Below are positions 2,570 through 21,842 of a stretch of DNA of 27,226 bases, in pieces. The notes under the pieces were generated by a model that searched no databases, was not told where the DNA came from, and saw only the letters and a list, made by a program, of their open reading frames with translations. Within the stretch, counting starts at the first letter, position 1. Each line of letters opens with the position of its first letter. Source of the DNA: a virus. The stretch covers positions 1 through 27,226 of IMG/VR virus record IMGVR_UViG_3300021964_007824. The stretch is one strand, 5' to 3'. Both the position numbers and the translations under genes were made by a program.

Positions 2570-3250
2570 ATGTCTAATATAACAGACCACCAAAGATACG
2601 AAGACGTAATCATTACAGAGGTAACTAAAGTAGATAGTAAAGGTTGGGTTGGGATAAAGACAGAAGAACATGGTGAGATAAGGTGTAAGTCTAACTTAAG
2701 GACTAAGCTAGGTCTCAAGAAGAAATGGGAGGGTGACCTGACTGTATGGGTCAATCCCAGTAATAGCACTGTGTGTGTAGCCTTTGATCAGAAAGCTTGG
2801 AAGGCTACTGGTGATGACTCAAAACCTAATGGTCAATGGGAAGTCACATTCAATAATAATCCATATGAAGCAGAAGGCTTTGTATATCTTATCATTGAAA
2901 AGAGTACAGGAAAGAAATACATAGGTAAGAAGTCTTATTGGAACTATAGTAAAGGTAAACGAGTAAGACAATCTAATTGGAAGACCTATGCTTCTTCTAG
3001 CTCAGAGATATCTGTTAAGGTAGCTGATAATAAAGATGATTATGAATTCATTATGTTAGCAGAAGCACCAGATAAATCTGCTTTAAATTATTTAGAAATA
3101 AAATCACAGATTGAGTATGAAGTTCTCACTTCGATAGATAAGAACGGAGAGAAAGTCTTTTATAATAAGACACTTGGTAGTGAGAAATGGATGTTAACTA
3201 AATCATTTATAGAGGAATACAATGAACGCAACACAACAAAAGCGTCCTGA
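2570..3250 (+). CDS. Putative GIY-YIG-type endonuclease
   Basis: A 226-aa protein with two parts. Residues about 10-75 look beta-rich and may be an OB-like nucleic-acid-binding part (unproven). Residues about 103-205 resemble phage GIY-YIG endonucleases: FVYLI (104-108, in place of GIY), KYIGKK (116-121), a basic/aromatic stretch, SNWKTYASSSSEI (135-147), and a later helix with a glutamate (NYLEIKSQIEYEVL) where the catalytic Glu is expected. Its place between the 5'-3' exonuclease and the primase-helicase suggests a job in host-DNA breakdown or recombination, possibly in place of T7 gp3; a homing endonuclease is the alternative. The start has a GAAAGGAAAT Shine-Dalgarno sequence 3 nt upstream of ATG. 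The 3' end overlaps a short basic ORF. Confidence 0.72.
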   Translation: MSNITDHQRYEDVIITEVTKVDSKGWVGIKTEEHGEIRCKSNLRTKLGLKKKWEGDLTVWVNPSNSTVCVAFDQKAWKATGDDSKPNGQWEVTFNNNPYEAEGFVYLIIEKSTGKKYIGKKSYWNYSKGKRVRQSNWKTYASSSSEISVKVADNKDDYEFIMLAEAPDKSALNYLEIKSQIEYEVLTSIDKNGEKVFYNKTLGSEKWMLTKSFIEEYNERNTTKAS

Positions 3251-5908: not shown

Positions 5909-8026
5909 ATGCAGGACATAAAAGAGTACCTCCTCAATAAAATAAGAGGAGATGATCTAGGAGTAAAGCCTAGAAGAAATTTACAGCTCATGCGTATGAT
6001 TGATACGGATGGCGTTGACATGTTAGACTTTCTAATAGATGACATGATATCCTACGCCAGAAAGGTAATTCAACGTTGCTTTAAACGAAATAAGGTTGAA
6101 GGTGAGTCAGCAATAACTCAAGCTTCAATGGCAGTAGGTAAATATATAATAGAAGGTTGGGATAGCTCCAATGTAAACTTCAGAGACCATGTACGAGTAG
6201 GTGATCTTATCATTGAAGGTTTCGTTATGTGTGGCTATCTAACTATATCAGTAGGACATATGAAAAGTCGTAAGCCAGTGACCATACATGCCACAAGTAA
6301 GTGGGGTGAAATGGAAGTAATCACTGGCAAGACTACTTGTATAAGTGCTACGCCAATTCCTCCCATAACTAGTTTATTCCAAGACAATGGTAGACCAGTT
6401 ATAAAGACTTGGGAGAAAAATAAAGAACAAAAGTTCCTTAAGTACCTTGATAAGCCATTTGTAAAGGCAATAGATAAGCTACAAGCAACTAGGTTTATAG
6501 TTAACTCTGATGTGCATAAAGCTATCCTAGAGAACTGGGATATGTTTATTAGTAATGAGGAGTATAACGGTGAAGACAAGAATGAGAACGCTAAGCTCTA
6601 TCAACGTCAAGCTTCTAAGAATAGAGAAGTCAAAGAGGTTATGGCTGCAGCGGATAAATGGTTAGATAAAGAGTTTAGCTTTTATCTAGATGCAGACTAT
6701 AGAGGTAGACTATATTATAGTGAACCGTTCTTTAACTTTCAAGGAGCAGATATAGCAAGGAGTCAATTACTCTTTGCCAAAGGAAAACTCTTTGATGAGA
6801 CAGCTAACTTCTGGTTAGCAGTACATACTGCTTGCTCATTCAATCAGTCATATAGTATAGATCAAATACCTAATTGGGCTTCTGTAGATTATAAAAGTAT
6901 ACTACAAGAAGAAGAGCTAGATACTATATCGGTAGATAAGATGACACTAGAAGATAGAGCTAGATGGACTCAAGAGAATATGGATGTTATCCTAGAGATG
7001 GGTGAGATGAGAATCTTTGCAGAAGAAGCAGAGAAGAAAATAGCATTCATGGCTTGTTGTATTGAGTGGTATAAGTACTCTCAATCTAAAGGCGAGTTCT
7101 ATACTCAATTACCTATACCTATTGATGGTGCTAACAATGGTTGGCAACACTTAGGTGCTATGTCTAAAGATGCTCTTACAGGTAGACTAGTAGGATTAAC
7201 TGCTGAAGAAGTACCTAATGATTTCTATGTGCAAGTTGCAAAGAGATTATGTGAGAGGATGCCTGAATGGTTTGAGGAAAGGCAGATGCCTATGAAACAT
7301 ATTAGGAAGGGCATAGCTAAGAGAGGTGCTATGACTAGAGCTTATAGCTGTGGTCAAAAGAAAATGTCAGAGTCTATGTATAGTGATTGTTATCAATTTG
7401 GTTACACTAAAGATTACAATATCAACACATGGGATTGTGATGAGCTTAGTAATCAAGTGATACGAGCTATACAAGAGGTCTGTCCAGGACCACTAGATAC
7501 TATGAGATACCTACAACGACTAGCTGATAAAGAGATATCTAATTGGCTAGACACTTATGGTACTGATAGAGGTCGAGGTATACAATGGGAATCCGAATCA
7601 GGCTTTCCAGTGATATACGAATGTTATCGTACTAGACCTGCAAAGGTAGACTGTTACGGATTCAATACACCAGATGGTGAACTGAGATTCAAGCATGTGA
7701 TAAGAGAGAAGACTGATATACCAGATAGGCGAGGCTTTATGTGTGGTATTAGTCCTAACTTCGTTCATAGCTCTGATGCAGCTCATATGGCTCTTGTAGT
7801 AGCCAATTGGGATGGCGAGTTCGGTGCAGTACACGACTCATTCAGTGCTCATGCTAGTAGGGTTGAAGACCTTATGGTAGAGGCACGAGATAAGTTCGTT
7901 AAGATATACGATAAAGAAAACTTTTATGACTCAATTCCATTTGGAAGAGGTTATGAAGGTGAGCAACCGACCATCGGTGCTTTAAATATAAATGAAGTAG
8001 TCCAATCGGATTACTTCTTCTGTTAA
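5909..8026 (+). CDS. DNA-directed RNA polymerase, single-subunit T7-like
   Basis: Phage RNA polymerase expected to transcribe later phage genes from its own promoters. The 705-aa product is shorter than T7 gp1 (883 aa), mainly at the N-terminal promoter-binding side. Core motifs are in order: DYRGR (263-267); motif A PIDGANNGWQH with catalytic D406; motif B K467-x3-K471-x3-M475-x3-Y479, where the nucleotide-binding Lys and the ribose-selecting Tyr are present but the usual leading Arg is Lys and the Gly after Tyr is Ser; motif C VHDSF with catalytic D643. SPNFVHSSDAAHM (615-627) also matches the T7 family. It is the last gene of the rightward block, whereas in T7 the polymerase gene comes first. 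It has its own sigma70-like promoter, and its stop codon merges into the terminator. Confidence 0.95.
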   Translation: MQDIKEYLLNKIRGDDLGVKPRRNLQLMRMIDTDGVDMLDFLIDDMISYARKVIQRCFKRNKVEGESAITQASMAVGKYIIEGWDSSNVNFRDHVRVGDLIIEGFVMCGYLTISVGHMKSRKPVTIHATSKWGEMEVITGKTTCISATPIPPITSLFQDNGRPVIKTWEKNKEQKFLKYLDKPFVKAIDKLQATRFIVNSDVHKAILENWDMFISNEEYNGEDKNENAKLYQRQASKNREVKEVMAAADKWLDKEFSFYLDADYRGRLYYSEPFFNFQGADIARSQLLFAKGKLFDETANFWLAVHTACSFNQSYSIDQIPNWASVDYKSILQEEELDTISVDKMTLEDRARWTQENMDVILEMGEMRIFAEEAEKKIAFMACCIEWYKYSQSKGEFYTQLPIPIDGANNGWQHLGAMSKDALTGRLVGLTAEEVPNDFYVQVAKRLCERMPEWFEERQMPMKHIRKGIAKRGAMTRAYSCGQKKMSESMYSDCYQFGYTKDYNINTWDCDELSNQVIRAIQEVCPGPLDTMRYLQRLADKEISNWLDTYGTDRGRGIQWESESGFPVIYECYRTRPAKVDCYGFNTPDGELRFKHVIREKTDIPDRRGFMCGISPNFVHSSDAAHMALVVANWDGEFGAVHDSFSAHASRVEDLMVEARDKFVKIYDKENFYDSIPFGRGYEGEQPTIGALNINEVVQSDYFFC

Positions 8027-8331: not shown

Positions 8332-11300
8332 CTAATTATATTGATACATAATAGTCTTTAATAACTGATTATATATTTTCTTTCTAGCTGCTTTAGCTTC
8401 AAAGGCTAGATTCTCAAGGCTAGTTCTTAAGTTAGTTTCTTTATAAAATATTTCTAAGATTTCTTTTAATGTTTCATTCGTAATAGAACCAGTACCGTCT
8501 GCTTTCCATCCATCATTAATTGCAAACGCAAGAATTTTTCTTTTATTATCTGGAGTTAAGTTAATTGGTTTTTTATATTTACGACCACGAGGTCTTCCAG
8601 TTCCTACTCCTCTTTCTTCTGCAGTTTTAGTTCTTAATTCTGCTAATTCAAATTCAATTCTAATTAATTCATCATGAACTGCTCTATACTTAGAATCATA
8701 ATTCATAAGCTGTTTACCTTTAGGATTATCCATTAATGTTTTAGTAACATTTTCAAAGGCATTATCAATTCCTTTTAATATTTCTTTTCCTATTGAGTAA
8801 GACATATTAACTTCTCGAAATTGTTGATTAATAGTCGAATGATATAGCTTAACAGATGAAGCATCCGTAATTATTGCATCATGAATTGGTATAACAAATG
8901 CAGGTGATCTTCTATTTAACGCATCTATATTAGCCTTATAAATAGTCTTTGCCATTATAGCTCCATCAATTTGCTGTACCGTTAATACTGGTAATTGATT
9001 AGCTACTTCTTGACCAAATCTCCTGTTAGTATCATCTTCCCTTTTCCATTCAGCATAACCATCTTGGTTCTTTACCCTTATTAATTTCTTTTTCTTAGAT
9101 TTAGCACTCCCTGTAGCATATCTTTTAGTCAAAGGGATAAACACTGAGCCTTCTGGAGTCGCAACCTCTACTGTTTTAGCTTGACCAGTAATAGGATCAA
9201 GCATTGGCTTATAATCGTATGAACCCATATAAATATCAGTACCTAGCGGACCTTTCATTTTAGGAATTACACCTAGCTTAGCCCACATATATCCAGCTTC
9301 TTTAAATATCTTTTGATTTCTTAAATTTAAAGTCTCCCTAAGTGTTTCGGTAATAATATCATTGAGATCACTAATCATATCATCTCGACCATATCCCTTA
9401 GCATTTGCCATGATTAAACCTTCAAATATTTGAGGGTTTTTATCTATAAAATTAATAGCAGTTTCTTCATTAAATCCTTCATATTTAGCATAAGATGTTT
9501 CCATTAAGGGTGTTTTAGAAAGTTCTTTACCAAGAGTTTTTAATGCCGATTTATCTTCTAATAATTTAGCTCTAAATGATAGCCAATAAGCTAATCTATC
9601 TTGATCTGTTGCAAACGCAACTGAGATTCCTTGCTCTATTTTTTCTAAAAATCTATCTCTAATATCTCCGAAAGGAGTAACAACATCCCCTGAAGTATAC
9701 ATTGCACCTACTAATTGTAGGATATCTCGTCTACCAAATTGCATAGCTTGTATTGCAATTCCATTTTGTTTTCCATCGTGTTGAGTCTGAGATTTTGCTT
9801 TGAATGAAGTTCCATTCTTTCTTGCGACATCAAAATCATAAACATCCATATAAGACTGATAAGGATAACCCCATTCACCAGCCATTCCATTTCCGTCAGG
9901 ATCAAATAGTTCATTAAATAATTCTTGACCTATACGTTCTTTAAACTGTTGTAATGTTTGTGGCTCTTGCTTTGAAGCTTCATAGGCTTCTTTAAGTAGC
10001 TTGCCTTTCTTTACCCAATTTAAATAAATAGGATCACTAGGATTACTTAATATTGATAATGAAGTATTTAAGATTGTGTTATAAGTAAGGTCTTCTGTTC
10101 TTTGTGCTCCTAAGCCTGTCATTTTGCTTTCATACATACGACTACTAGGAGGAAGAATATTCTTTCCTATTATATAAGCCCAGCCTTTGTATGTATCAGT
10201 CTTAGTGTCTTTGTTTGGATCAAGAGTAATTGCTACTGCATTACCAACAAACATCCTTGCAACTTTATTTAGCTGAGAATTAATATCAGTATTACGTATG
10301 AAGTATCTTCCTACTGAAGATGCATGAAATTGTTTATTATAATATACGCCTCCATTTGTTTCTTCTGCGGCATATTTTTTTAACTTTAATAACTTCTTAG
10401 CCTCTCTAATCATAACAAGATTAGCCTGTTGTTCAGCCCTTTCTACAGGCAATAACTTTTTTGCATGATTAAAAGCTTTCATCCAATGAGCTTCATCAAG
10501 ACCTAATGTTTTAGCAGCATCTCCTTTAGACCAACGTCTTCCAGGAGTTCCTTCATCTCTAAAGCCTAAAACAGTTTCTCCATCATCAGTGATAATAACA
10601 GAATCTATTAATTGATTAGCCATATTATATCTTTCATCAACGACAGTTAATGGCATACTTTTAAGGAGTTGCTTAACAGTATCTTCAATGTAAGTGTTAT
10701 AAGACATTTTATTTGTTTGAGATACTGAACCTCTTTTTCTTTCTCCAGCAAATCTAGCTCTACTAGGTATATCTAGACCTGGAACTTTAGATCTAAAAGT
10801 AATATCTCTAGATAATATATCATCTAAAATACTTCTATTATTTTGAAATACCATTTCTCCTTTTTCTGAAATAACAATCATATCATCTTCAATACCTAAT
10901 TCTTTATTATTTTCTTTAGGTATTTTTTGAATCCAACCAAGATTACTTAATGTTTGAAAAAGAACTGCATCACCTGCAGCAATAATATTAGGTCTTAACG
11001 TTTCTCCGAAGCCTCCAAATCCAGTTTGAGCACCTGGAGCACCTGGTATCCCTAATGCCTTAGGGTTCTCAACTACGCTGTTTAATATCCTAGTAAATAA
11101 ACCTTTTCTTAAATCAGAGGCATCAATTAATTTATTTTGCAATGAAACTTTTTTAACCTTATCTTTCATTGCTCTATAGTTTTGAGCAGTCAATTCATTT
11201 TGAGCAAGCATTAGTTCAGGTTTAGTTACTAATTCATCTTCTTTATTAACAAGATCTCTCATAACCTCTAATATAGACTTAAGAATATTATTAGCTAAAT

Positions 11301-11994
11301 TAGGGCTTATTCTTTTAGTATTTGTATCAATTAGATTTGAATTTGAAAGTATATTTAATATTGCTTCACTTTCTTTTGTTTGATTGTTAAAGAAAGGAAG
11401 TGAAGTTCTATCAAATTCATCTTGAACTAAAATACCATTGTCAATAAAAGAACTAACATCATCAATAGTAGATACAGGGGGCTCTACTGATTTAGTATTT
11501 TGAAGTCTAGCTTTTAAAACATCAGGACTAGTAGTATCAAATAGATCAGGTGTTGTCTGATCATAAATACTCTCGTCTCTTTCAATAGCTTGACCCATAG
11601 CTTCATAAGCGGTTTTTTTAGTCTTGTCAAAGACTTGTTCACCAGTTTCATCTGTTCTTAATATTCCACCAGCTTTTCTTATTTGATCAGAAAGAACGTC
11701 AAAAGGTAATCCTCCTTCTCCTTCTTCTGTGGCTGATTCAAATTGTTTATCGATATCTTTTAATCCAGGAACAATTCGTTTAGATTGTGCTTGTACTTCA
11801 GTTATGTCTTCAAAAGTACGACCTTCAGTTATTCCAATATCGCCTCGATCAACCCCTGTATAAAACTCTTCGTCAGTAATAGGGGTCGCTTCAGTATCTA
11901 TTGAAACATCTTTACGATCTTGTAATAATTTTTTGCTGTCTCTTAATCTCTCTGAGATTGATTTAACATTTAGTCCGCCTACATTTATTGTCAT
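8332..11994 (-). CDS. Putative virion-associated RNA polymerase (N4 vRNAP-like)
   Basis: A 1220-aa protein encoded in the late virion block, directly after the giant ejection protein. The middle has single-subunit RNA polymerase motifs in the right order: SSVGR (559-563, the TxxGR element of N4 vRNAP, followed by INSQLNKVAR); motif A HDGKQNG with D740; motif B K823-x3-K827-TPL-M831-x3-Y835, where the leading Arg is Lys and the Gly after Tyr is Ala; motif C PIHDAI with H1038, D1039. The spacing D740-K827 (87) is close to T7 (94), and Y835-D1039 (204) lies between T7 and N4. About 430 residues precede the core. The tail after about 1090 holds an AT-hook-like GRPRGRK. By analogy with N4 it would be packaged, ejected and transcribe early genes. 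N4 vRNAP is about 3500 aa, so this is a much smaller version. A degenerate, non-catalytic internal protein is the alternative. The start has GGAG 7 nt upstream. Confidence 0.8.
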   Translation of the reverse strand: MTINVGGLNVKSISERLRDSKKLLQDRKDVSIDTEATPITDEEFYTGVDRGDIGITEGRTFEDITEVQAQSKRIVPGLKDIDKQFESATEEGEGGLPFDVLSDQIRKAGGILRTDETGEQVFDKTKKTAYEAMGQAIERDESIYDQTTPDLFDTTSPDVLKARLQNTKSVEPPVSTIDDVSSFIDNGILVQDEFDRTSLPFFNNQTKESEAILNILSNSNLIDTNTKRISPNLANNILKSILEVMRDLVNKEDELVTKPELMLAQNELTAQNYRAMKDKVKKVSLQNKLIDASDLRKGLFTRILNSVVENPKALGIPGAPGAQTGFGGFGETLRPNIIAAGDAVLFQTLSNLGWIQKIPKENNKELGIEDDMIVISEKGEMVFQNNRSILDDILSRDITFRSKVPGLDIPSRARFAGERKRGSVSQTNKMSYNTYIEDTVKQLLKSMPLTVVDERYNMANQLIDSVIITDDGETVLGFRDEGTPGRRWSKGDAAKTLGLDEAHWMKAFNHAKKLLPVERAEQQANLVMIREAKKLLKLKKYAAEETNGGVYYNKQFHASSVGRYFIRNTDINSQLNKVARMFVGNAVAITLDPNKDTKTDTYKGWAYIIGKNILPPSSRMYESKMTGLGAQRTEDLTYNTILNTSLSILSNPSDPIYLNWVKKGKLLKEAYEASKQEPQTLQQFKERIGQELFNELFDPDGNGMAGEWGYPYQSYMDVYDFDVARKNGTSFKAKSQTQHDGKQNGIAIQAMQFGRRDILQLVGAMYTSGDVVTPFGDIRDRFLEKIEQGISVAFATDQDRLAYWLSFRAKLLEDKSALKTLGKELSKTPLMETSYAKYEGFNEETAINFIDKNPQIFEGLIMANAKGYGRDDMISDLNDIITETLRETLNLRNQKIFKEAGYMWAKLGVIPKMKGPLGTDIYMGSYDYKPMLDPITGQAKTVEVATPEGSVFIPLTKRYATGSAKSKKKKLIRVKNQDGYAEWKREDDTNRRFGQEVANQLPVLTVQQIDGAIMAKTIYKANIDALNRRSPAFVIPIHDAIITDASSVKLYHSTINQQFREVNMSYSIGKEILKGIDNAFENVTKTLMDNPKGKQLMNYDSKYRAVHDELIRIEFELAELRTKTAEERGVGTGRPRGRKYKKPINLTPDNKRKILAFAINDGWKADGTGSITNETLKEILEIFYKETNLRTSLENLAFEAKAARKKIYNQLLKTIMYQYN

Positions 11995-12045: not shown

Positions 12046-15000
12046 TTATTGTTTACCAAATAGGTATTCACTTAAATCTTCATTTAAAGGATTCTTTAGA
12101 TGAAAAGCATCAGAGATTCCTTTTCTTGCAACTGGTACTGGTGCAACTCCAGGTAATGTTTTTCCAAAACTATTAATTGCTCTTTCAGTTTCGCCTTCAA
12201 TTAGTTGACCCATGCCAGTAAATACATTTTGAATATTCCTAGCTGCAGGACCAGCCTCACCTAATATAGCTCTTGAAAGATTATCAAGCCCTGTATCTCG
12301 GTCTGGATAAAGGGGTACTGCAAAGTCTAGCACTCTTTCATATTGACCAAGTATTCCTGATGCGTAGATAGCTCTTTGTACATATCGAGGACCATCTAGA
12401 TAAGGACTAGGCTCAAGGAATTTTATTAAGTCTTTTAAATACTGAGATGCACCTCCAAGACCTATCATAAAAATCATAAGAGCAAATGTATCATACTTTA
12501 CTTTAGTATTTCCTTTTCTAAGATTTCTATTCCATAATTTAGGAACTATATTAGCAGTAAAAGTACTTAAGAAACCATTAAACTGAGTTAATAATTGATA
12601 ATGAGGATCTTGAAAGAATAGAGGTCTATTACTAGCTCCTGGAAGTTGAACTCGTTCATTTACAAAACGATATATACCAGTTTCTATTTCATCATCTAGC
12701 GATGCGGCTAACTCTTGAACTCTATCAACAAGCTTTTGCTCATTAATTCTTAATTTATTTTTAACTCTTTCTATTGTGCCATCCTGATAACTTCTAGTTC
12801 TTGATTTAAATTCTCCACGAGCAATAGTTCTTAATAATTGTTCTCTAGGAGAGATACCCTTAAGCTGATTAATAGCCTTGCCTTCTTTATCGTATACTGG
12901 CATAGTTTCAAATTCTTTACCAACCCTAGGTTTAACTTTAGTTGTCACATCAAATAAAATATCAAGAGGTGATTGTCTGTTTTCAAAGGTATTATCTGAT
13001 AAATCAAATAAACTATCTCTCAATAATTCATCAATGCCAGATACATATTGATCAACAGACTCAACATCTATTCCTAATTCTTTTAATTGATTATAAGTTA
13101 ATCTTTCTCTCTCAGTAAATTTATCAAAGTCAAAAGCATTTCGATCACCTGTAATTTGATTATACCTTCGAGGGGCTAATCTTAATATACTAAAGTTAGA
13201 TTTAATAAAGTCTAAACCAATAGCAGCATTTAATCTTCTTTGAAATTGAGTTATCTTTTGGATACCAACTCCTTTAAAGAAAGCTTCATGTGCTCTTAAG
13301 AATGCAATATCTCTTTCTCCTGTAGCATATCTATCTACCACGGTATTTTGATCTGTAGCTAATCCTATTTGCTTTAAAAGCTTTTCTGTATTCTTTACAT
13401 CAGCTTTTAATGCTTTATTAAAAATAGATGCTAGATCTTTCACCATAATATCAGTTGCTCTTTTAAACTCCTGATCATCTTTTAAATTGAAATAGACCAT
13501 AGCTGTTTCTGGAATAGAAGCTATTGCAGCCAAAGGTAATCCTGAAAATATAGTCCAACTAGTTAAATAACGATTAACAGCTGCCCATTCGTTACTAGCT
13601 ATTCTATTAAAATTACCATGGGCACTATCAATTATAGCCTTAGTGTAATAAGCAAATTGTCTAATATCTTTCTCATCAAGATTATTTAATCCTGCCTGGG
13701 TTTCTTTTTTAAGGTCATCAAATAACTGATTTAATTTCCAACCACCATCACCAAAATACTCAGCACTTGAAACAAATTTAGATATCTCTATTTGATTTCT
13801 ATTTAATGCTTCAAAAAGATTTTGACTAGAAAATTCTTCAAATCCTTTTTTATTATAGAGCATTTTAAATTTAGGATTAAAAGAAAAGTTTTGATAAGGT
13901 TTACCATCAACTAAAGAAAATTCTTCATTTATAGAGCTTGTACCTTCTCTAGAAATAGTGATATACATTCTTTCAGCTTCTTCTTTAGTTATATTTTTAG
14001 TTCCTATAAGCCACTTTTTAAACTTAACAGGATTTCGTTTAACTTTTTTCCAATCAAAGCCTTGATTCGTCCACCAATAATCTGGATCATACTCATCATT
14101 TATATTTTGATTTCTTTCTTTTCTAACTTGTTCAGCATATAATTGAAAGCTTTTATCATATGACGCTTTTATTTTAGAAGCCGCAATGAATAATTTAGTC
14201 ATCCTATCAAATTCTGCTTCACTAGTAATAGAATCCTTAGATGTAATATAATTACCTGTCTTTTTATCTTTAATTATTTTCTTAAGTAATTTAAACTTAT
14301 CAGTAATTACTCTTTGGGTTTTACCTGTTGGTCGATTATTGCTATCTAATTCATTTACTACTTCAGAATTATTATTAATATAATCAATAACATCTGTGAT
14401 CTCATAAGTTTGAATGCCAAATTTATCAGCAAGATGCTCTTCGATTACTCTAATTCTTCTTTCTAAATCAGCTTCTTCGTCTTTATTTCGAGGAACTGTA
14501 CGATTTAATTCTTGATAGAGCTTAAGTAAATTTGGACCAGTAATACTTCTCCTTTCTCTTGAAGCTAATACATCTAAGTCATGAATTGTTGTTGCAAATA
14601 AGATAGCTTTTATTGCTTTAAAGTTACCTGATTTACCAAATTCAATTAACTCTTTTGATATATCAACTGCAGAGCTAGCAGTCAAAGTGTCACCAGTTAA
14701 ATCCATTGCAATATCGTTTTCATCGACATAAGATTTTAAATCACTAACAATATCTCTAGCATACTCAACAAAGTTTCTTCCAGTTAGATAAGCAGCACTA
14801 GTTAATCCTGCTATTCTTGACCATATTTTTAAAGCAATATCAGAGGTTACTAACTTTTTATGATCTAACATATAATTTTCTACTGCTCTAAATAACTTAG
14901 CTACATTAGTAGTTGCATTAACTACAAAATCTTTTAAGCCATCACTGTTAGCTATAAAGTTATAAGTTCCTCTATCTGTATCTTCATGTTCTCTAGCAAG

Positions 15001-17457
15001 ATCTCCGACTATTTGTTTATTTTTCTTATCGGTCTTATCAAACTTAGTGTCTGGAAGTGAGGGTATATCTTGATGTAATTGAGGTTCGTCAATTCGTTCT
15101 AGCTGATATTGAATAGCTTTTAACTCAGCAGATATTGGTCCTAGATCTGAAGGAAAAACTTTACCTTGCTCCTTTCTTTTTTTATATTCATTAAATAAAG
15201 CGGCTTTTCGAGCTTGTAATTCTTTTTTACTTAGCTCATTAACTATAGAGCCATCTGATAATACAAATCTTTGGTTAAGAGCAGACATAGTAAAAAAGCT
15301 TCCCTTATTTAAAGTATGTTCTTTAGTTATCTTAGAGTTATCAGGTTTGATTACTGTTTGACCATTTAAAACTTTAAGTCTGATTCTTAATGCATTAATT
15401 TTTAATATAAGATCTGAATAACCTAATTGGTCAGTTGCCCCTGCATCTTTCATAGCTTTAAGTTGACTTTCTAATTTAGGTAAAAGATTTTCTATTTCTT
15501 CTTTAGTAAAGCCTTTAGAATTAACGGTCTGATTAACATTTCCAGTATTAAAATCAATACCGTCATAAATACTTTGTTCATGATAATTCCCTTGATTAAG
15601 GATATGCTCTGATCCGTCTTCTAACTTAATTTTTTTAGTACCTAGTTCACTAATTGCTATTACAGTAGCTATAATAGGGTTACCAGCAAGATCATAAACA
15701 ATTATTTTATCTTTATTAATTTCTTCTTTTAAATCTAGTAAGTCTCTAACTTTAATAGGTTTAGTTGGAGTTCCCTCTACTAATATTTTTTTATGAGGCT
15801 GACCATTAGTGTCATAAACAGTTACTGTAGGTAAACCATCAGGATTAGAAGGGTCTGCTCTATCTTTAACGTTAGCCTCTTGTCGAGCAATATCTTGATC
15901 AACCCTTCTGTTAGTATCGTTTAGTTTACCTGCTTTCTCATCTTCAAGTCTCTTCTGTTCAATAGGAGTTGATCGAGTATCGTCAGCCCTCAAATACATT
16001 TTCTTTGTAAGTTGATTTTTACCTTGTCGATATATATTTCCTGCTGAACCATATGCCCCACCAAGAATTGCACCACCAATACCTGCGTTCATTAATCTAT
16101 TTTTTAATTCTTCATCAGTAAAGGTAGTATCTGATCCTGCTGTAACTGCTACTGCTTGAGTTAACTCTTGACCTATTTCAGTAAGCCCTTCTCTAGTCAT
16201 ACCTTTAGCAGCTGCTTTACCAAATGTTGCAGCTGATAGCTTAGCAAAATCTTTACCTAAAAATTTAACTTGTTCTTTAATTGCTCCCTTTAATTGTGCA
16301 TTTAATACAATTTCTGCTTGTTGAATTGTCATGCCTTTGTTGTTATTAACAATATGTTTTAAGGCTCTATTACGACCAGCTACAGAAAGTAAATCTACTG
16401 GTTGCATTAAACCTCTTAGACCTACTCTTTCTAAAGTAGCCTGTAATACTCCTGACATATTAGCTATTACAAATTGAGATAGACCTTTTTCGCCTTCCAT
16501 CTCATTCCAAGTATGACCAGCATACACCATAGTTTGAGGTATCTGAGACAGTATCATTCCTATTGCTGGAGTAGTAAGAGCTCCTAAAGGAATTGCTGCT
16601 GCTAATGATGAAAAACCTGCTATCATATATGGAGCTGCCATACCTGCAGTGTTCATAGCATATTGAAAACCATCGGTAATGCTGTCTACGTCTTTATAGT
16701 TAAGAAGCAACTGAGGTGCTTGCGACATTTCATCACGTATTCTTATGACATTTCTTTCACCGAAATTTTCAATCATCTCAATATCAGTCATCTGACCTAA
16801 AGCATCAATATATCCATATAATCCTTCAAATACTCCGTCAGCTCCAACTCCAAAACTTCTTGCACCTGAATTCCAAAATCCTAGAGGTTGATTATCGATT
16901 GTTTTAGAAGGATCACGAAAGGCAACCCCACTATGAATATTTTTATTATATTCTCTTTCATTAAGAGCTTTCTCTTTAAAACGAAGAGGGATAGTAGCCA
17001 TAGTATTACGGTACTCTTCACCTATCTTGTCATACGGAGTATTAGAGTTACCTAACAGGGCATTAGATAACTCCATGTCTCTTTGAGCTAATATATTTTC
17101 TTCTGAAGTAAAGGAATCTACGCTAGCTATTCCTTGTTTGTATAGTTCGGTAGCCGCATTTTCTCCTTTATTATTTATAAAGTCAATTATACGTCTTTCA
17201 CCTTTACTCTTATCAATCTCATCTGAATATTTGGCAAAGAAGTTTCCTGTAGAAAGAAGCTCGCCTACCTTCTTAGTTTGAAAGTCAGCTCCTATTTCTC
17301 CTCTCTGTACTATCCAATTACCATCTTTATCTTTTATGACTTTATCTGTTTCTAAACCATCGAAACCTCTTACTCGAAATCGTTCTCCATCTTTATTAAC
17401 TGCAGTATCTGAATCGATTAACGTTAAAGATTCTCCGTATTCATCTAAGATATTCAT
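12046..17457 (-). CDS. Giant internal virion (ejection) protein with N-terminal nuclease-like domain
   Basis: At 1803 aa this is the largest gene here and most likely the T7 gp16-type protein that is ejected and helps form the DNA channel. Residues about 11-135 read as a staphylococcal-nuclease-like domain: IDSDT (D15, D17, T18), FRVRGFDGLET (R28, D33, E36), R88/R89 in KGERRIIDF and YKQGIAS (106-112) line up with SNase residues 19-22, 34-44, 87 and 104-109. A long hydrophobic, Ala/Gly-rich stretch follows at about 265-315, with another at 457-473 (NAGIGGAILGGAYGSAG). The C-terminal third contains NERVQLPGASNRPLFF and a hydrophobic helix at about 1657-1668, a layout typical of the large ejection proteins of marine podoviruses and of phage polyvalent proteins. 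AAGGAG precedes the ATG and overlaps the upstream gene's end. Ejection role inferred from size, hydrophobicity and position. Confidence 0.82.
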   Translation of the reverse strand: MNILDEYGESLTLIDSDTAVNKDGERFRVRGFDGLETDKVIKDKDGNWIVQRGEIGADFQTKKVGELLSTGNFFAKYSDEIDKSKGERRIIDFINNKGENAATELYKQGIASVDSFTSEENILAQRDMELSNALLGNSNTPYDKIGEEYRNTMATIPLRFKEKALNEREYNKNIHSGVAFRDPSKTIDNQPLGFWNSGARSFGVGADGVFEGLYGYIDALGQMTDIEMIENFGERNVIRIRDEMSQAPQLLLNYKDVDSITDGFQYAMNTAGMAAPYMIAGFSSLAAAIPLGALTTPAIGMILSQIPQTMVYAGHTWNEMEGEKGLSQFVIANMSGVLQATLERVGLRGLMQPVDLLSVAGRNRALKHIVNNNKGMTIQQAEIVLNAQLKGAIKEQVKFLGKDFAKLSAATFGKAAAKGMTREGLTEIGQELTQAVAVTAGSDTTFTDEELKNRLMNAGIGGAILGGAYGSAGNIYRQGKNQLTKKMYLRADDTRSTPIEQKRLEDEKAGKLNDTNRRVDQDIARQEANVKDRADPSNPDGLPTVTVYDTNGQPHKKILVEGTPTKPIKVRDLLDLKEEINKDKIIVYDLAGNPIIATVIAISELGTKKIKLEDGSEHILNQGNYHEQSIYDGIDFNTGNVNQTVNSKGFTKEEIENLLPKLESQLKAMKDAGATDQLGYSDLILKINALRIRLKVLNGQTVIKPDNSKITKEHTLNKGSFFTMSALNQRFVLSDGSIVNELSKKELQARKAALFNEYKKRKEQGKVFPSDLGPISAELKAIQYQLERIDEPQLHQDIPSLPDTKFDKTDKKNKQIVGDLAREHEDTDRGTYNFIANSDGLKDFVVNATTNVAKLFRAVENYMLDHKKLVTSDIALKIWSRIAGLTSAAYLTGRNFVEYARDIVSDLKSYVDENDIAMDLTGDTLTASSAVDISKELIEFGKSGNFKAIKAILFATTIHDLDVLASRERRSITGPNLLKLYQELNRTVPRNKDEEADLERRIRVIEEHLADKFGIQTYEITDVIDYINNNSEVVNELDSNNRPTGKTQRVITDKFKLLKKIIKDKKTGNYITSKDSITSEAEFDRMTKLFIAASKIKASYDKSFQLYAEQVRKERNQNINDEYDPDYWWTNQGFDWKKVKRNPVKFKKWLIGTKNITKEEAERMYITISREGTSSINEEFSLVDGKPYQNFSFNPKFKMLYNKKGFEEFSSQNLFEALNRNQIEISKFVSSAEYFGDGGWKLNQLFDDLKKETQAGLNNLDEKDIRQFAYYTKAIIDSAHGNFNRIASNEWAAVNRYLTSWTIFSGLPLAAIASIPETAMVYFNLKDDQEFKRATDIMVKDLASIFNKALKADVKNTEKLLKQIGLATDQNTVVDRYATGERDIAFLRAHEAFFKGVGIQKITQFQRRLNAAIGLDFIKSNFSILRLAPRRYNQITGDRNAFDFDKFTERERLTYNQLKELGIDVESVDQYVSGIDELLRDSLFDLSDNTFENRQSPLDILFDVTTKVKPRVGKEFETMPVYDKEGKAINQLKGISPREQLLRTIARGEFKSRTRSYQDGTIERVKNKLRINEQKLVDRVQELAASLDDEIETGIYRFVNERVQLPGASNRPLFFQDPHYQLLTQFNGFLSTFTANIVPKLWNRNLRKGNTKVKYDTFALMIFMIGLGGASQYLKDLIKFLEPSPYLDGPRYVQRAIYASGILGQYERVLDFAVPLYPDRDTGLDNLSRAILGEAGPAARNIQNVFTGMGQLIEGETERAINSFGKTLPGVAPVPVARKGISDAFHLKNPLNEDLSEYLFGKQ

Positions 17458-17460
17458 ATA

Positions 17461-20400
17461 TTACTCCTTCTCTAAGGCTGATATTATTTTAAGAGCATCA
17501 GGGTCATTCTTAACAACTTGATTAACCCAATTTATAAAGTCATTCATGCCTTTAGTTTTAGTTCCAATAAAATTTTTCCTAAGACCTTTTTCTTCTAAGG
17601 CTTTATCAGACATTTTTGAATATTTATTCCATATTGTTTTTAATTGATTTTGAAAATTTTCTGCTACCTTTACTAGCTTATTTTCATCTACATCATTTAA
17701 CTTTAGCATATCGAATAAACTGTTTTGGACTTCTTGTAATCTTTCTGCACTAGTATCTTTTACTAAATCAGGAGTCCAAATACCTCCAGTCCTAAAGGTA
17801 ATCATTCGCTTATTAAAGAATTCTTTTAGTGAACTAGGTTTGTCAGCTCCTGTTTCACCTTTTAAATAACGTCTATAAGCTTCGTAATAGTCGCCCATCG
17901 CTGCTTCTAGCTCTGAAATTATTTCTGCTCTTGCAACTGTATCCTTTTTAAACTTTTGATTTTTCATCTCATTTCTTAATAAAGATTCAGCTTGATTAGA
18001 TACCTTTCGTATTTCAGATTGATTTATTTGTTTCTCTTCATCAATATCTTTATTAACAAGAGCTAAATAATCTTTTGAAGCTTTAGCAAAATTATCTTTA
18101 ATGGTAGTTGAATCATGTATCTTAGGATCAAGAGTATCTAGTCTTCCAGCCACTTGAGGATACGGTATTAACTTACCCTCTATTCTAGCTGCTGTTGTTC
18201 CATCTGCCATCTCAAACATTTGAACAACCTTTTGAGTGTTTCTATCAAACATTGGTGTCAATGGTTTTTTAATAGATGAACCTTTCTTAACTAATTCACT
18301 ACGATCTCCATTAATTAAAAACCTTTGAATAGAAGACTGTTCATAGTTATCAGTAGCGGCTTTACTATTAGCCCATTTTTTATTAGCATCCATTTGAGCA
18401 TCTATACGCTTAAGATAATTTTTACCTACATAATTAACAGAGCTACCATGCTCATAGCCTAATGCTCTTGAACCTAAATAAGCTAAAGCTGCTCTAGTTA
18501 ACTCTTGAGTATCAAAGAATTGAGAGAAAAAACCTTTAATATAATCATACGTTGTAGGATCTTCTTTAGCCTTCTTTGCACCTAACTCTGTTACTATTTT
18601 TGTATTCTCTTTAACTGCAGGCGAATCATTAGTTTGTGTTACTAGACTATTCACTATTTGTTTTAATTCAGGAGAGGTATTATTAACACTTCCAGGAATT
18701 AAACTTTGTTTTAGTTTTTCCTTCTCATCTTCTAATGCTTTTACTAAAGTAGAGTTATTATTTTTCTTAGCCTCTTCTATTTTAGCATCTAACTCTTTTG
18801 TTTTATTTGTAACAATTCCAGACTTTTCAATAAACTCTGCTTTTTTATCTGATGCTTCCTTATCTGCTATGTATTTTTTATAAGCCTTATCTTGTTTAAC
18901 TGCTTGATTATAGTCTTCCATATAAAAGTTATAAGATTTTTCATTGCCATCCTTAGCAAATTTCTCTGCTAACTTTTTAGGAATATCTTCAGATACTCTA
19001 TTAGGATTAACAGGTTGAACTGCTCCTGTTGAATCAAGTATAATATCATCATCAACTCCTAATTCAAATCTTTTAATCTCAACTGGATTCATTCCAGAAT
19101 ACATGTCTTGATCCACTGGTTCTGGAATCTCATTATCACCAGTACTAGCTTGAGCCGACATAAATCCACTTTCTATAGGTGTACTGTCATACACGGCTGG
19201 TCTAGGTTCAGGCATAGGGATTTCACCCATTATTGCATTCACTTTACTAGCATACTCCTGACCACGAGGACCGAGTTTCTCTTGTCCAGATCTAGCTTTG
19301 AGAACATTGCTAAGACCTGAATGGTATGCAGTAATTATTTCGTCTCTACTTAAATGAGGATTTCTATCAGCTAACTTTTGCATATATCTTTTAGCAAAAT
19401 CCTTAGCTAATACTGGATTTTTAAGATCTTCAAGAGCTATAGGCTTAACTCCATATCCAGGATTTTGTGCTGTAGATGGTAATATTTGCATTGGACCGAT
19501 AGCACCTGCTTCAGACTCTGCATTTACATCCCCTCCAGATTCAACTTGCATCATAGCATTAACAATGTCGTCTGTAATCGTGACTCCTCCTTCATTAAAA
19601 TATTTAGGAGGTTTACCTAAATAAACTGAGTCATGCATATCTGAAGCTTGATCCATAAAATTTTGTACAAGATCAGTAGAACGAGGTGTACCCTCTGCAT
19701 TGTATTTAGGGATTTGTGATACTGTAGATCCAGAAGAACCACCTATTAAAGAGTTTTGGGTTGGTTGCAAAGCACTTACCGCTTGATCTGAACTTAAATT
19801 AAGATTATCTTCAAGAGCAGTCATCATCTGATTATTAGGCAGCCCCATATCTTTCATTTTTTCTACTTCGCCTTTAACAAGGTCATTATTAATTGGCTGA
19901 TAAAGTTTACTAACTTGATAAGGTCTACCATAGTAATCTGTATAAGTGTTTTTACTTCCATAATTTATTTGATTTTCACCAATAACACCTCCTTCTTGTA
20001 GATAAGAACCATCATCTCTGAAGTTCATTAAGTTTTGACTGTTAAGTCTTGCATAATAGTCTGCTTCAGTGGGTGTTTTAAACCTCATATCTGGTTGCGG
20101 TATTTGACCTTGATATAACATCTGCTCTATTTGCTGTGGAGTATATTGTATACCGTTATATATACTAGGTACATGACCATAGCCATGTGTATTATCTCCA
20201 ACAGTAATTCTTTGCTCAGATACTTTATATCCATCAGGTGTTTCATAGACTTTTTTATCGGTAACTGTTCTCATACCAGTGTCTTTACCTGCCGATTTCC
20301 CTTCTACCTTAGAACCCTCTGCATTATAACTAGGTATTGGTCCACCTTGTTTCTTTTGAATAGCACGACCCATATCATTAATATCATCTAATAGGGGCTG

Positions 20401-20592
20401 AACCCCAGGAAGTCTAGATGCCTCTGCGTTAATTACATTTTCTCCTGGAGTTAACCATGCAGGTACTGTATCAGTTCCTCTTGGCTCTCCAGGGTGATCT
20501 GGCTTAGGTACTTCGTTCATAGAAGGTACATTAAATTCATAAGAAAACATATTACCATGGCGGTCTTTCTGTGTAAACTTTTTTAGTTGCAT
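17461..20592 (-). CDS. Internal virion protein with lytic transglycosylase (SLT) domain
   Basis: A 1043-aa virion protein expected to cut peptidoglycan locally during DNA entry. The SLT domain lies at about 338-450: catalytic Glu351 in MQVESGG, then NAESEAGAIGPMQILPSTA and ITAYHSG, the classic goose-lysozyme-like pattern. In T7 the SLT domain is at the N-terminus of gp16; here it is in its own large protein next to the giant gp16-like protein. The N-terminus has GTDTVPAWLTPGENVINAEA (39-58), a motif seen in tape-measure and other virion proteins. Repeated Y/F-N-x-x-G elements occur at 89, 297 and 332. Residues about 540-680 and 850-1043 are highly charged and helical or coiled coil. The ATG overlaps the previous stop (TAATG) and has AAGGAG upstream. 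Confidence 0.9.
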   Translation of the reverse strand: MQLKKFTQKDRHGNMFSYEFNVPSMNEVPKPDHPGEPRGTDTVPAWLTPGENVINAEASRLPGVQPLLDDINDMGRAIQKKQGGPIPSYNAEGSKVEGKSAGKDTGMRTVTDKKVYETPDGYKVSEQRITVGDNTHGYGHVPSIYNGIQYTPQQIEQMLYQGQIPQPDMRFKTPTEADYYARLNSQNLMNFRDDGSYLQEGGVIGENQINYGSKNTYTDYYGRPYQVSKLYQPINNDLVKGEVEKMKDMGLPNNQMMTALEDNLNLSSDQAVSALQPTQNSLIGGSSGSTVSQIPKYNAEGTPRSTDLVQNFMDQASDMHDSVYLGKPPKYFNEGGVTITDDIVNAMMQVESGGDVNAESEAGAIGPMQILPSTAQNPGYGVKPIALEDLKNPVLAKDFAKRYMQKLADRNPHLSRDEIITAYHSGLSNVLKARSGQEKLGPRGQEYASKVNAIMGEIPMPEPRPAVYDSTPIESGFMSAQASTGDNEIPEPVDQDMYSGMNPVEIKRFELGVDDDIILDSTGAVQPVNPNRVSEDIPKKLAEKFAKDGNEKSYNFYMEDYNQAVKQDKAYKKYIADKEASDKKAEFIEKSGIVTNKTKELDAKIEEAKKNNNSTLVKALEDEKEKLKQSLIPGSVNNTSPELKQIVNSLVTQTNDSPAVKENTKIVTELGAKKAKEDPTTYDYIKGFFSQFFDTQELTRAALAYLGSRALGYEHGSSVNYVGKNYLKRIDAQMDANKKWANSKAATDNYEQSSIQRFLINGDRSELVKKGSSIKKPLTPMFDRNTQKVVQMFEMADGTTAARIEGKLIPYPQVAGRLDTLDPKIHDSTTIKDNFAKASKDYLALVNKDIDEEKQINQSEIRKVSNQAESLLRNEMKNQKFKKDTVARAEIISELEAAMGDYYEAYRRYLKGETGADKPSSLKEFFNKRMITFRTGGIWTPDLVKDTSAERLQEVQNSLFDMLKLNDVDENKLVKVAENFQNQLKTIWNKYSKMSDKALEEKGLRKNFIGTKTKGMNDFINWVNQVVKNDPDALKIISALEKE

Positions 20593-21842
20593 TAATCTTC
20601 TCCTTTTAAGATTTTAACCTCTGATTGTAATGCTGTTACTTGTGAAGATAACTCTTTAACTGCATTTACTAAATGCCAAGTCATATTTTCTGGATTAACA
20701 CTTAGAATTCCGTTGCTCTCTTCGTTAACCATATCTGGTAAGATAGCTTGTATTTCTTGTGCTATAACACCCAATTGAACCCCATCTCTATGGACAACAA
20801 CAGATTCAGGATTATTAAAATCAGTGAGTTCATCTTCAGTTTTATATTCAAAGTTTTTAACTTGAACTTTGTTTATAGCATCGAGACCAACTGTATTATC
20901 TTCTATGTTTTTCTTAACCCTCTCATCTGACCAGCCTTTCCAGAACTTAAGCTTATGATAGGAATTCTTTTTTCGTTGTTCTTCTGCTGCTCGTGCTCGT
21001 GCCGCTGCTGCCGCCGCATCCGCTGCTGCCTTTTCCTTAGCTAATCTTTCAGCTTCTAGTCTCTCAGCTTCTATTTTAGCTAATCGTTCAGCTTCTAGTC
21101 TTTCAGCTTCTATCCTAGCCGCTTCTCTTTCTTCGGCAGTTGTTCCTTCTCTAAATCCAGCATCTTCTAAGCCCATAAGATCTCTTATTGATTGATCTCG
21201 AAGGAATTCCTTTCTTCTTTCTGAATCTGTAACGCTTTCTTTATTTTGGTCTGCAATAAGTTGGGTAAGATCTACTTCTGTTCCTAAATTAGGTTGATTA
21301 GTGCTATCAGTAGAACTAAGCGGAGCTGGCTTTGGACGTTTTACTATATCTAGGGAAGAGCTTGGTTGTATTCCAGTGATTCCGCCTACAGCATTATCTG
21401 TAAATCTATTTCCTAATTTACCTCCAGCCGATTCAGAAGGCTTTATTCCTTCAAAGGATTCTCTTATATTGGCTAGCGTATCTTGTAGTGTTGCATTAAA
21501 ATTTTTAATCGGAGATCCTTTTGTACTTTTTGAATTAGAGGCTAATGGATCAGCCATAGCTATATTACCTAAGGTGTTAGCCGAACCCATCTGTGTAGAT
21601 CCAGATGTTTTTGCAGGAGCTGATCCTGCTGTTGTTAATGCAGAAGCATTAGTATTGCCCATGTCAGTAATCTTAATTGGTGTTGACGTAGTTGATAGAG
21701 GTGAATAGTCACTTTGAGCTCCTGAAAGCGGTCCTAGCCCATAATAAGAAACAGGACTGGCTATGACATCTTTATCTTGGTCCTCATCCTCGTTGAGAAG
21801 GCTAGATTCAATGAAATCACCTCGTGCTAGATATCTGTTCAT
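20592..21842 (-). CDS. Virion protein with coiled coil and C-terminal peptidase S74 chaperone domain
   Basis: A 416-aa protein in three parts. Residues 1-235 are Ser/Thr/Gly/Asn-rich and look disordered. Residues 236-292 are a long Glu/Arg/Ala coiled coil with a perfect tandem repeat of IEAERLEAERLAK. Residues about 305-416 are an intramolecular chaperone (peptidase S74) domain: SDERVKKNI carries the Ser305/Lys310 dyad, followed by NFEYK, GVIAQEIQAILPDMV and a final helix ending in LVNAVKELSSQV. In tailspikes and fibres this domain trimerises the protein and then cuts itself off just before the Ser. Here it would cut after Trp304 and leave a trimeric coiled-coil protein. It sits among internal virion genes rather than with a clear fibre gene, so it may be a short fibre or an internal trimeric component. 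The start overlaps the previous stop (ATGA). Confidence 0.88.
   Translation of the reverse strand: MNRYLARGDFIESSLLNEDEDQDKDVIASPVSYYGLGPLSGAQSDYSPLSTTSTPIKITDMGNTNASALTTAGSAPAKTSGSTQMGSANTLGNIAMADPLASNSKSTKGSPIKNFNATLQDTLANIRESFEGIKPSESAGGKLGNRFTDNAVGGITGIQPSSSLDIVKRPKPAPLSSTDSTNQPNLGTEVDLTQLIADQNKESVTDSERRKEFLRDQSIRDLMGLEDAGFREGTTAEEREAARIEAERLEAERLAKIEAERLEAERLAKEKAAADAAAAAARARAAEEQRKKNSYHKLKFWKGWSDERVKKNIEDNTVGLDAINKVQVKNFEYKTEDELTDFNNPESVVVHRDGVQLGVIAQEIQAILPDMVNEESNGILSVNPENMTWHLVNAVKELSSQVTALQSEVKILKGED
21037..21114 (-). repeat. 39-bp tandem duplication in the coiled-coil region
   Basis: Two adjacent 39-bp units (21037-21075 and 21076-21114) encode identical 13-residue blocks IEAERLEAERLAK with about three synonymous base differences. 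The unchanged protein and diverged DNA suggest selection on the coiled coil, or an older duplication. Each block also contains the inner half-repeat EAERL twice. Confidence 0.85.

Follow-up and report, generated by a model that had tools for sequence, protein, structure and literature searches.

Among the enzymatic domains known from podophage ejection proteins, peptidoglycan hydrolases predominate, and N4-like phages add an RNA polymerase. T7 uses three virion proteins, gp14, gp15 and gp16, of which the giant gp16 bears a hydrolase, while N4 encodes an operon of three virion proteins, the ejectosome, in which the virion RNA polymerase (vRNAP) gp50 is packaged and ejected together with gp51 and gp52 (PMC12633501). 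The LUZ24-type phage phiIBB-PAA2 has a large protein, orf48, that is annotated as a virion protein and belongs to the type collected in PHROG 6958 (virion structural protein). Staphylococcal nuclease (SNase, or thermonuclease; PF00565; PDB 1ey0, 1snc and many variants), an OB-barrel with helices, is in turn known as a free secreted enzyme. A search of openly accessible literature found no report of an SNase in a phage protein that is part of the virion, internal or ejected.

Here, we analyze a viral locus in which an SNase domain almost certainly forms the front of a giant protein of the ejection type. In this family, which also includes the cultured Roseobacter phage CRP-7 (MK613349), the domain stands at the head of proteins of 1300-1800 aa, unlike the secreted enzyme. 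It is thus a known enzyme fold in a setting for which no earlier report was found in the literature searched. The passages found in the published description of CRP-7 mention ORF30 alone as an RNA polymerase and name no nuclease (PMC6918029).

Identification of the N-terminal domain

The window, by which we mean the whole stretch of DNA that was analyzed, is the virus record IMGVR_UViG_3300021964_007824 of IMG/VR (27,226 nt, positions 1 to 27,226). Its source is a short-tailed marine phage, which probably shoots the giant protein considered here into its host. This virion or ejection-type protein is encoded by an ORF of 1803 aa on the minus strand (12046..17457), which starts three bases past the upstream ORF (17461..20592, minus strand). 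A good ribosome-binding site, GAAGGAGTAATATATG, precedes the start, with GAAGGAG at 17464..17470 (minus strand) before the ATG at 17457, and the SNase domain is therefore the true N-terminus of the protein. The initial annotation had placed an SNase-like domain at residues about 11-135, and the positions 17053-17427 correspond exactly to residues 135-11 of this ORF. The residues named as evidence at the time (D15, D17, T18, R28, D33, E36, R88 and R89) are indeed present in the sequence, as is YKQGIAS at residues 106-112.

On its own, the window domain gave no SNase match in searches of Pfam, PHROGs and PDB sequences, only noise such as Rpb2 domain 6 and USF. Since this single sequence is too divergent for such searches, the assignment rests on its relatives. 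These were gathered by scans of IMG/VR, which yielded 31 loci at first, 55 with an alignment and a further 7 with gp34 of CRP-7, many contigs recurring between scans. The resulting alignment holds 53 distinct N-terminal sequences, counting those of the window and of CRP-7, and for most of these homologues the identity to the window is about 19-40%.

Once relatives were included, the searches pointed to a single family. A 48-member profile, built from the window and its IMG/VR relatives, was compared with the PDB by hmmsearch, and SNases made up all 60 matches listed, with a best E of 1.9e-5; for a 24-member profile, the 60 matches listed were again all SNases (best E 1.7e-4). The N-terminal part of a full-length profile likewise matches SNases in the PDB. 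Single relatives reached the Pfam SNase family with best E values of 5.6e-5 and 3e-5 (in the latter search, they matched no other Pfam family at E 0.01), and a single relative matched the NCBIfam thermonuclease NucI (E 9.5e-5). A chance match to SNase was ruled out by this addition of relatives, and we assign residues 1-150 of the ORF to a PF00565-type SNase domain with very high confidence.

The same answer was obtained from a structural perspective. With an alignment guided by the relatives, AlphaFold2 predicted the N-terminal domain with a pLDDT of 90.6 and a pTM of 0.82, and the model has the OB/SNase fold. Absence of this fold had been named in the initial annotation as a refutation, and the outcome thus favors the proposed domain. 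The core comprises residues 6-132 (17062..17442, minus strand); VIA-align places the model on SNase residues 9-136 over 109 residues (Z 9.9, rmsd 3.1). In a Foldseek search of the PDB, the best matches were SNases (E 1.3e-4, TM 0.48, rmsd 5.5), and a model of 520 residues contained the same SNase domain (Z 9.0). Among viral predicted structures, the best match was a protein of 1368 residues, which is the length of CRP-7 gp34. Profile, fold and invariant active-site residues thus agree on the domain first proposed for residues ~11-135.

The phage domain and SNase share about 17-20% identity. Besides the barrel and helices, they have in common the equivalents of D19, D21, T22, R35, E43 and R87 and an (L/I)xxxG end of the C-terminal helix. 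They differ in that the phage family often has Asn in place of D40, has T41-P42 replaced and carries a beta-hairpin insertion, at residues ~39-51, directly after E36 (SNase E43). The alignment with SNase had initially been described as gapless at key places; the active-site residues do correspond, while gaps occur elsewhere, the hairpin among them.

Conservation of the active site

Of the aligned columns, exactly six do not vary among the 53 distinct homologues: D15, D17, T18, R28, E36 and R88. In the profile alignment, they map to D19, D21, T22, R35, E43 and R87 of SNase, so that every one of them is an active-site or adjacent position. D15-x-D17-T18 constitutes the metal-site motif (17404..17415), the stretch from R28 to D33-G34-L35-E36, equivalent to SNase R35, D40, T41, P42 and E43, is encoded at 17350..17376, and R88 at 17194..17196, all on the minus strand. 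The chance that the counterparts of D21, R35, E43 and R87 would all fall within six random invariant columns of 135 is ~1e-6. One locus, L086, reads DADS and was excluded from the 53 by the D.DT filter; it retains the R, E and R positions as judged by eye, and T18 is therefore not strictly universal.

Other positions are less uniform. Whereas G98 is found in 52/53 homologues, R89, which the initial annotation had paired with R88 as the counterpart of R87, varies among relatives, leaving R88 as the equivalent. Position 34 (SNase T41) is Ala in 39 sequences, Thr in 7, Gly in 5 and Ser in 2, and the reported replacement of T41 by Gly thus describes the window but not most of its relatives. Position 33 (SNase D40, a Ca2+ ligand in that enzyme), which is Asp in the window, is Asp in 28, Asn in 23 and Glu in 2 of the 53. 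Because Asn stands at this position in 23/53, some family members may use metal differently, and the Asn and Glu variants could hint at a shift in metal use within the family. An Asn at D40 in nearly half of the family is a puzzle in its own right.

The SNase domain evolves under purifying selection, with dN/dS of 0.04-0.27 in the eight pairs for which it could be computed. Judged from these conservation patterns, the N-terminal domain is likely to be catalytically competent.

The body of the protein and the neighboring genes

Behind the SNase domain, the protein is homologous to the LUZ24-type large virion protein. An hhalign comparison of 28 full-length relatives with phiIBB-PAA2 orf48 gave a Prob of 99.66 and an E of 3e-25, aligning window residues ~196 to ~1684 (12406..16872, minus strand) with residues 65-956 of the 1055 in the template, and 27 of the 28 relatives matched PHROG 6958. 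In contrast to the window protein, the LUZ24-type protein has only ~64 residues before the shared body and is without an SNase domain, so the nuclease has been added at the N-terminus of an internal virion protein whose kind is known. When all six frames were scanned with the SNase profile, no match appeared in the fetched structural regions of phiIBB-PAA2, Vibrio phage KIT05, N4 and T7, and no locus had more than one matching ORF. Neither an SNase nor a virion RNAP was seen in the annotated neighborhood of the LUZ24-type protein gene.

We also compared the protein with the T7 and N4 ejection proteins, which resemble the locus in forming sets of three, including a virion RNAP in the case of N4, but are without an SNase domain in the regions tested. 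Against T7 gp16 and gp15, a C-terminal stretch of the body aligned with gp16 at an E of 0.27 only, and we do not claim homology. The N-terminal part of the family is collinear with the N-terminus of N4 vRNAP at an E of 0.043, which is not significant. N4 gp52, which at 150 aa has the size of an SNase, was considered as a counterpart and rejected.

Almost all relatives whose flanks are long enough show the same gene order: a protein of ~600-1400 aa, the SNase gene and a protein of ~1120-1330 aa. In the window, the upstream partner (1043 aa; 17461..20592, minus strand) carries an SLT transglycosylase domain at residues 340-439 (Pfam SLT, E 5e-15). A peptidoglycan-hydrolase domain was present in 9/9 upstream partners tested, those of the window and eight relatives, and in the relatives it was of the SLT, Phage_lysozyme or Pesticin type. 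Several upstream partners have a lysozyme domain instead of SLT, and a strict SLT motif therefore missed many of them. Between the same neighbors, the hydrolase domain is swapped among these three types and sits at varying positions (e.g. in loci L002, L004, L016, L051 and L088). Directly upstream of the hydrolase gene, a 416-aa protein (20592-21842, minus strand) has a C-terminal Peptidase_S74 intramolecular chaperone domain, which is typical of tail fibers.

The downstream partner (1220 aa; 8332..11994, minus strand) resembles the N4-type virion RNA polymerase (PHROG 2206 virion RNA polymerase, E 6.6e-8). Among 47 distinct sequences, the single-subunit RNAP residues D740 of motif A and D1039 of motif C are present in 47/47 and Y835 of motif B in 46/47. 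Across motifs A and B, the profile of this partner is collinear with N4 gp50 (pairwise E 5.6e-4); the CRP-7 branch does not retain the N4-like DGxxNG version of motif A, and a search of the RNAP profile against PDB sequences found no N4 or T7 RNAP. Besides this virion-RNAP-like protein, the same phage encodes a separate single-subunit RNAP of 705 aa (5909-8026, plus strand).

The trio recurs in CRP-7 as gp35-gp34-gp33, all three annotated as hypothetical. The N-terminus of gp34 reads DGDT..R..DAGE..GR, gp33 is virion-RNAP-like and gp35 has a lysozyme/pesticin-like domain; gp33 and gp34 are ~16-24% identical to the window proteins. With the SNase gene placed between hydrolase and virion-RNAP-like genes, the trio looks like an ejectosome operon. 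These conserved neighbors, together with the LUZ24-type body and the PHROG virion matches, bear out the initial designation of the 1803-aa product as a giant ejection protein.

Possible roles of the domain

By analogy with T7 gp14-16 and N4 gp50-52, the trio would be packaged, would leave the virion with the DNA or ahead of it, and would build the trans-envelope channel, and on this analogy it is likely that the SNase domain is delivered with the ejectosome. All relatives examined have an intact active site, so infection by these phages probably begins with the delivery of a nuclease that is ready to act. The chemistry is most likely that of SNase, in which case D17 and D33 would hold Ca2+, E36 would serve as the base, and R28 and R88 would act on the phosphate; the nuclease is probably dependent on Ca2+. 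SNases need Ca2+ at the levels of seawater or the periplasm, and free Ca2+ in the cytoplasm is far lower.

It is this Ca2+ need, satisfied in seawater and periplasm and unsatisfied in the cytoplasm, that leads us to favor an envelope-active nuclease. With somewhat better than even confidence, we regard the front domain as a genuine SNase-family nuclease, fused to a LUZ24-type ejection protein, that is active at the envelope and cuts nucleic acid outside the channel. Such an enzyme would work at millimolar Ca2+, whether in the periplasm or on the surface of the marine host cell. It would have almost no activity in the cytoplasm, where Ca2+ is scarce and the phage genome arrives; its targets could be DNA that is stray or comes from a superinfecting phage, or nucleic acid of the host at the time of entry. 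A Ca2+-activated nuclease lying beside the genome in seawater (~10 mM Ca2+) must somehow be kept in check; no inhibitor was identified. How a nuclease of this type is kept off the packaged genome in seawater poses a biophysical puzzle.

Alternatively, the SNase domain could enter the cytoplasm with the virion RNAP and cut the host chromosome or mRNA, shutting down the host early. We consider this unlikely, as free Ca2+ in that compartment is far below the SNase need, the phage DNA, itself unprotected, would be put at risk by a few nuclease copies entering just before it, and no immunity partner was identified, even though the catalytic residues are conserved, as is the operon with the virion-RNAP-like protein, whose N4 counterpart has been proposed to refold in the cytoplasm (PMC12633501). 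The partnership with a polymerase also invites the idea that the nuclease processes the DNA that the phage itself brings in, or early RNA, for use by the virion RNAP, for instance by nicking or trimming that exposes single-stranded promoters. Where the flank is long enough, the SNase domain is found only with a virion-RNAP-like neighbor; it is absent from the LUZ24-type relatives, beside whose body gene no virion RNAP was seen, and in vitro, N4 vRNAP accepts denatured N4 DNA as a template but not the native form (PMC12633501). This co-occurrence of domain and neighbor may, however, go back to the shared ancestry of a single phage group. With their low sequence specificity, SNases would put the genome at risk, and N4, in whose structural region no SNase was found, uses host gyrase instead; we consider such processing improbable.

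One could also speculate that no cutting takes place, and that the OB/SNase fold serves solely to bind nucleic acid, or another protein of the virion core, in the manner of Tudor-SN repeats. Tudor-SN/SND1 structures are indeed among the fold matches, and the D40 equivalent is Asn in 43% of the sequences. Against this, the equivalents of R35, E43 and R87 are invariant in 53 divergent sequences, where some loss would be expected of a non-catalytic domain. A domain that only folds or binds would not need these three residues together, and their invariance across sequences that are mostly 19-40% identical favors catalysis over mere binding, so that we regard a purely structural role as improbable. 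A further, quite unlikely idea is that the injected nuclease and RNA polymerase act as a pair, the SNase conditioning the genome end or clearing competing nucleic acid so that the vRNAP can start immediately. If true, this would be the first virion-delivered SNase in an entry machine and would add a new class of enzyme to the cargo, alongside peptidoglycan hydrolases and polymerases.

Returning to the envelope-active nuclease that we favor, its conservation within the entry machinery would mean that infection by a marine phage group with one cultured member, CRP-7, involves the cutting of nucleic acid from its first step. The possible purposes of an ejected nuclease, namely superinfection exclusion, host attack and genome processing, thereby become testable.

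Additional observations

In one relative, L096 (CALGTL010000115.1), the contig is binned as part of a Dehalococcoidia MAG; as this may be a phage contig in the bin, the bin is not safe evidence of the host. Elsewhere in the window, an ORF of 226 aa (2570-3250, plus strand) has a SegE-type GIY-YIG endonuclease domain (Pfam, E 4e-23). Its best PHROG is labeled 'NAD synthetase', a name also given to CRP-7 gp22, and in view of the GIY-YIG domain this label of the 226-aa ORF looks wrong.
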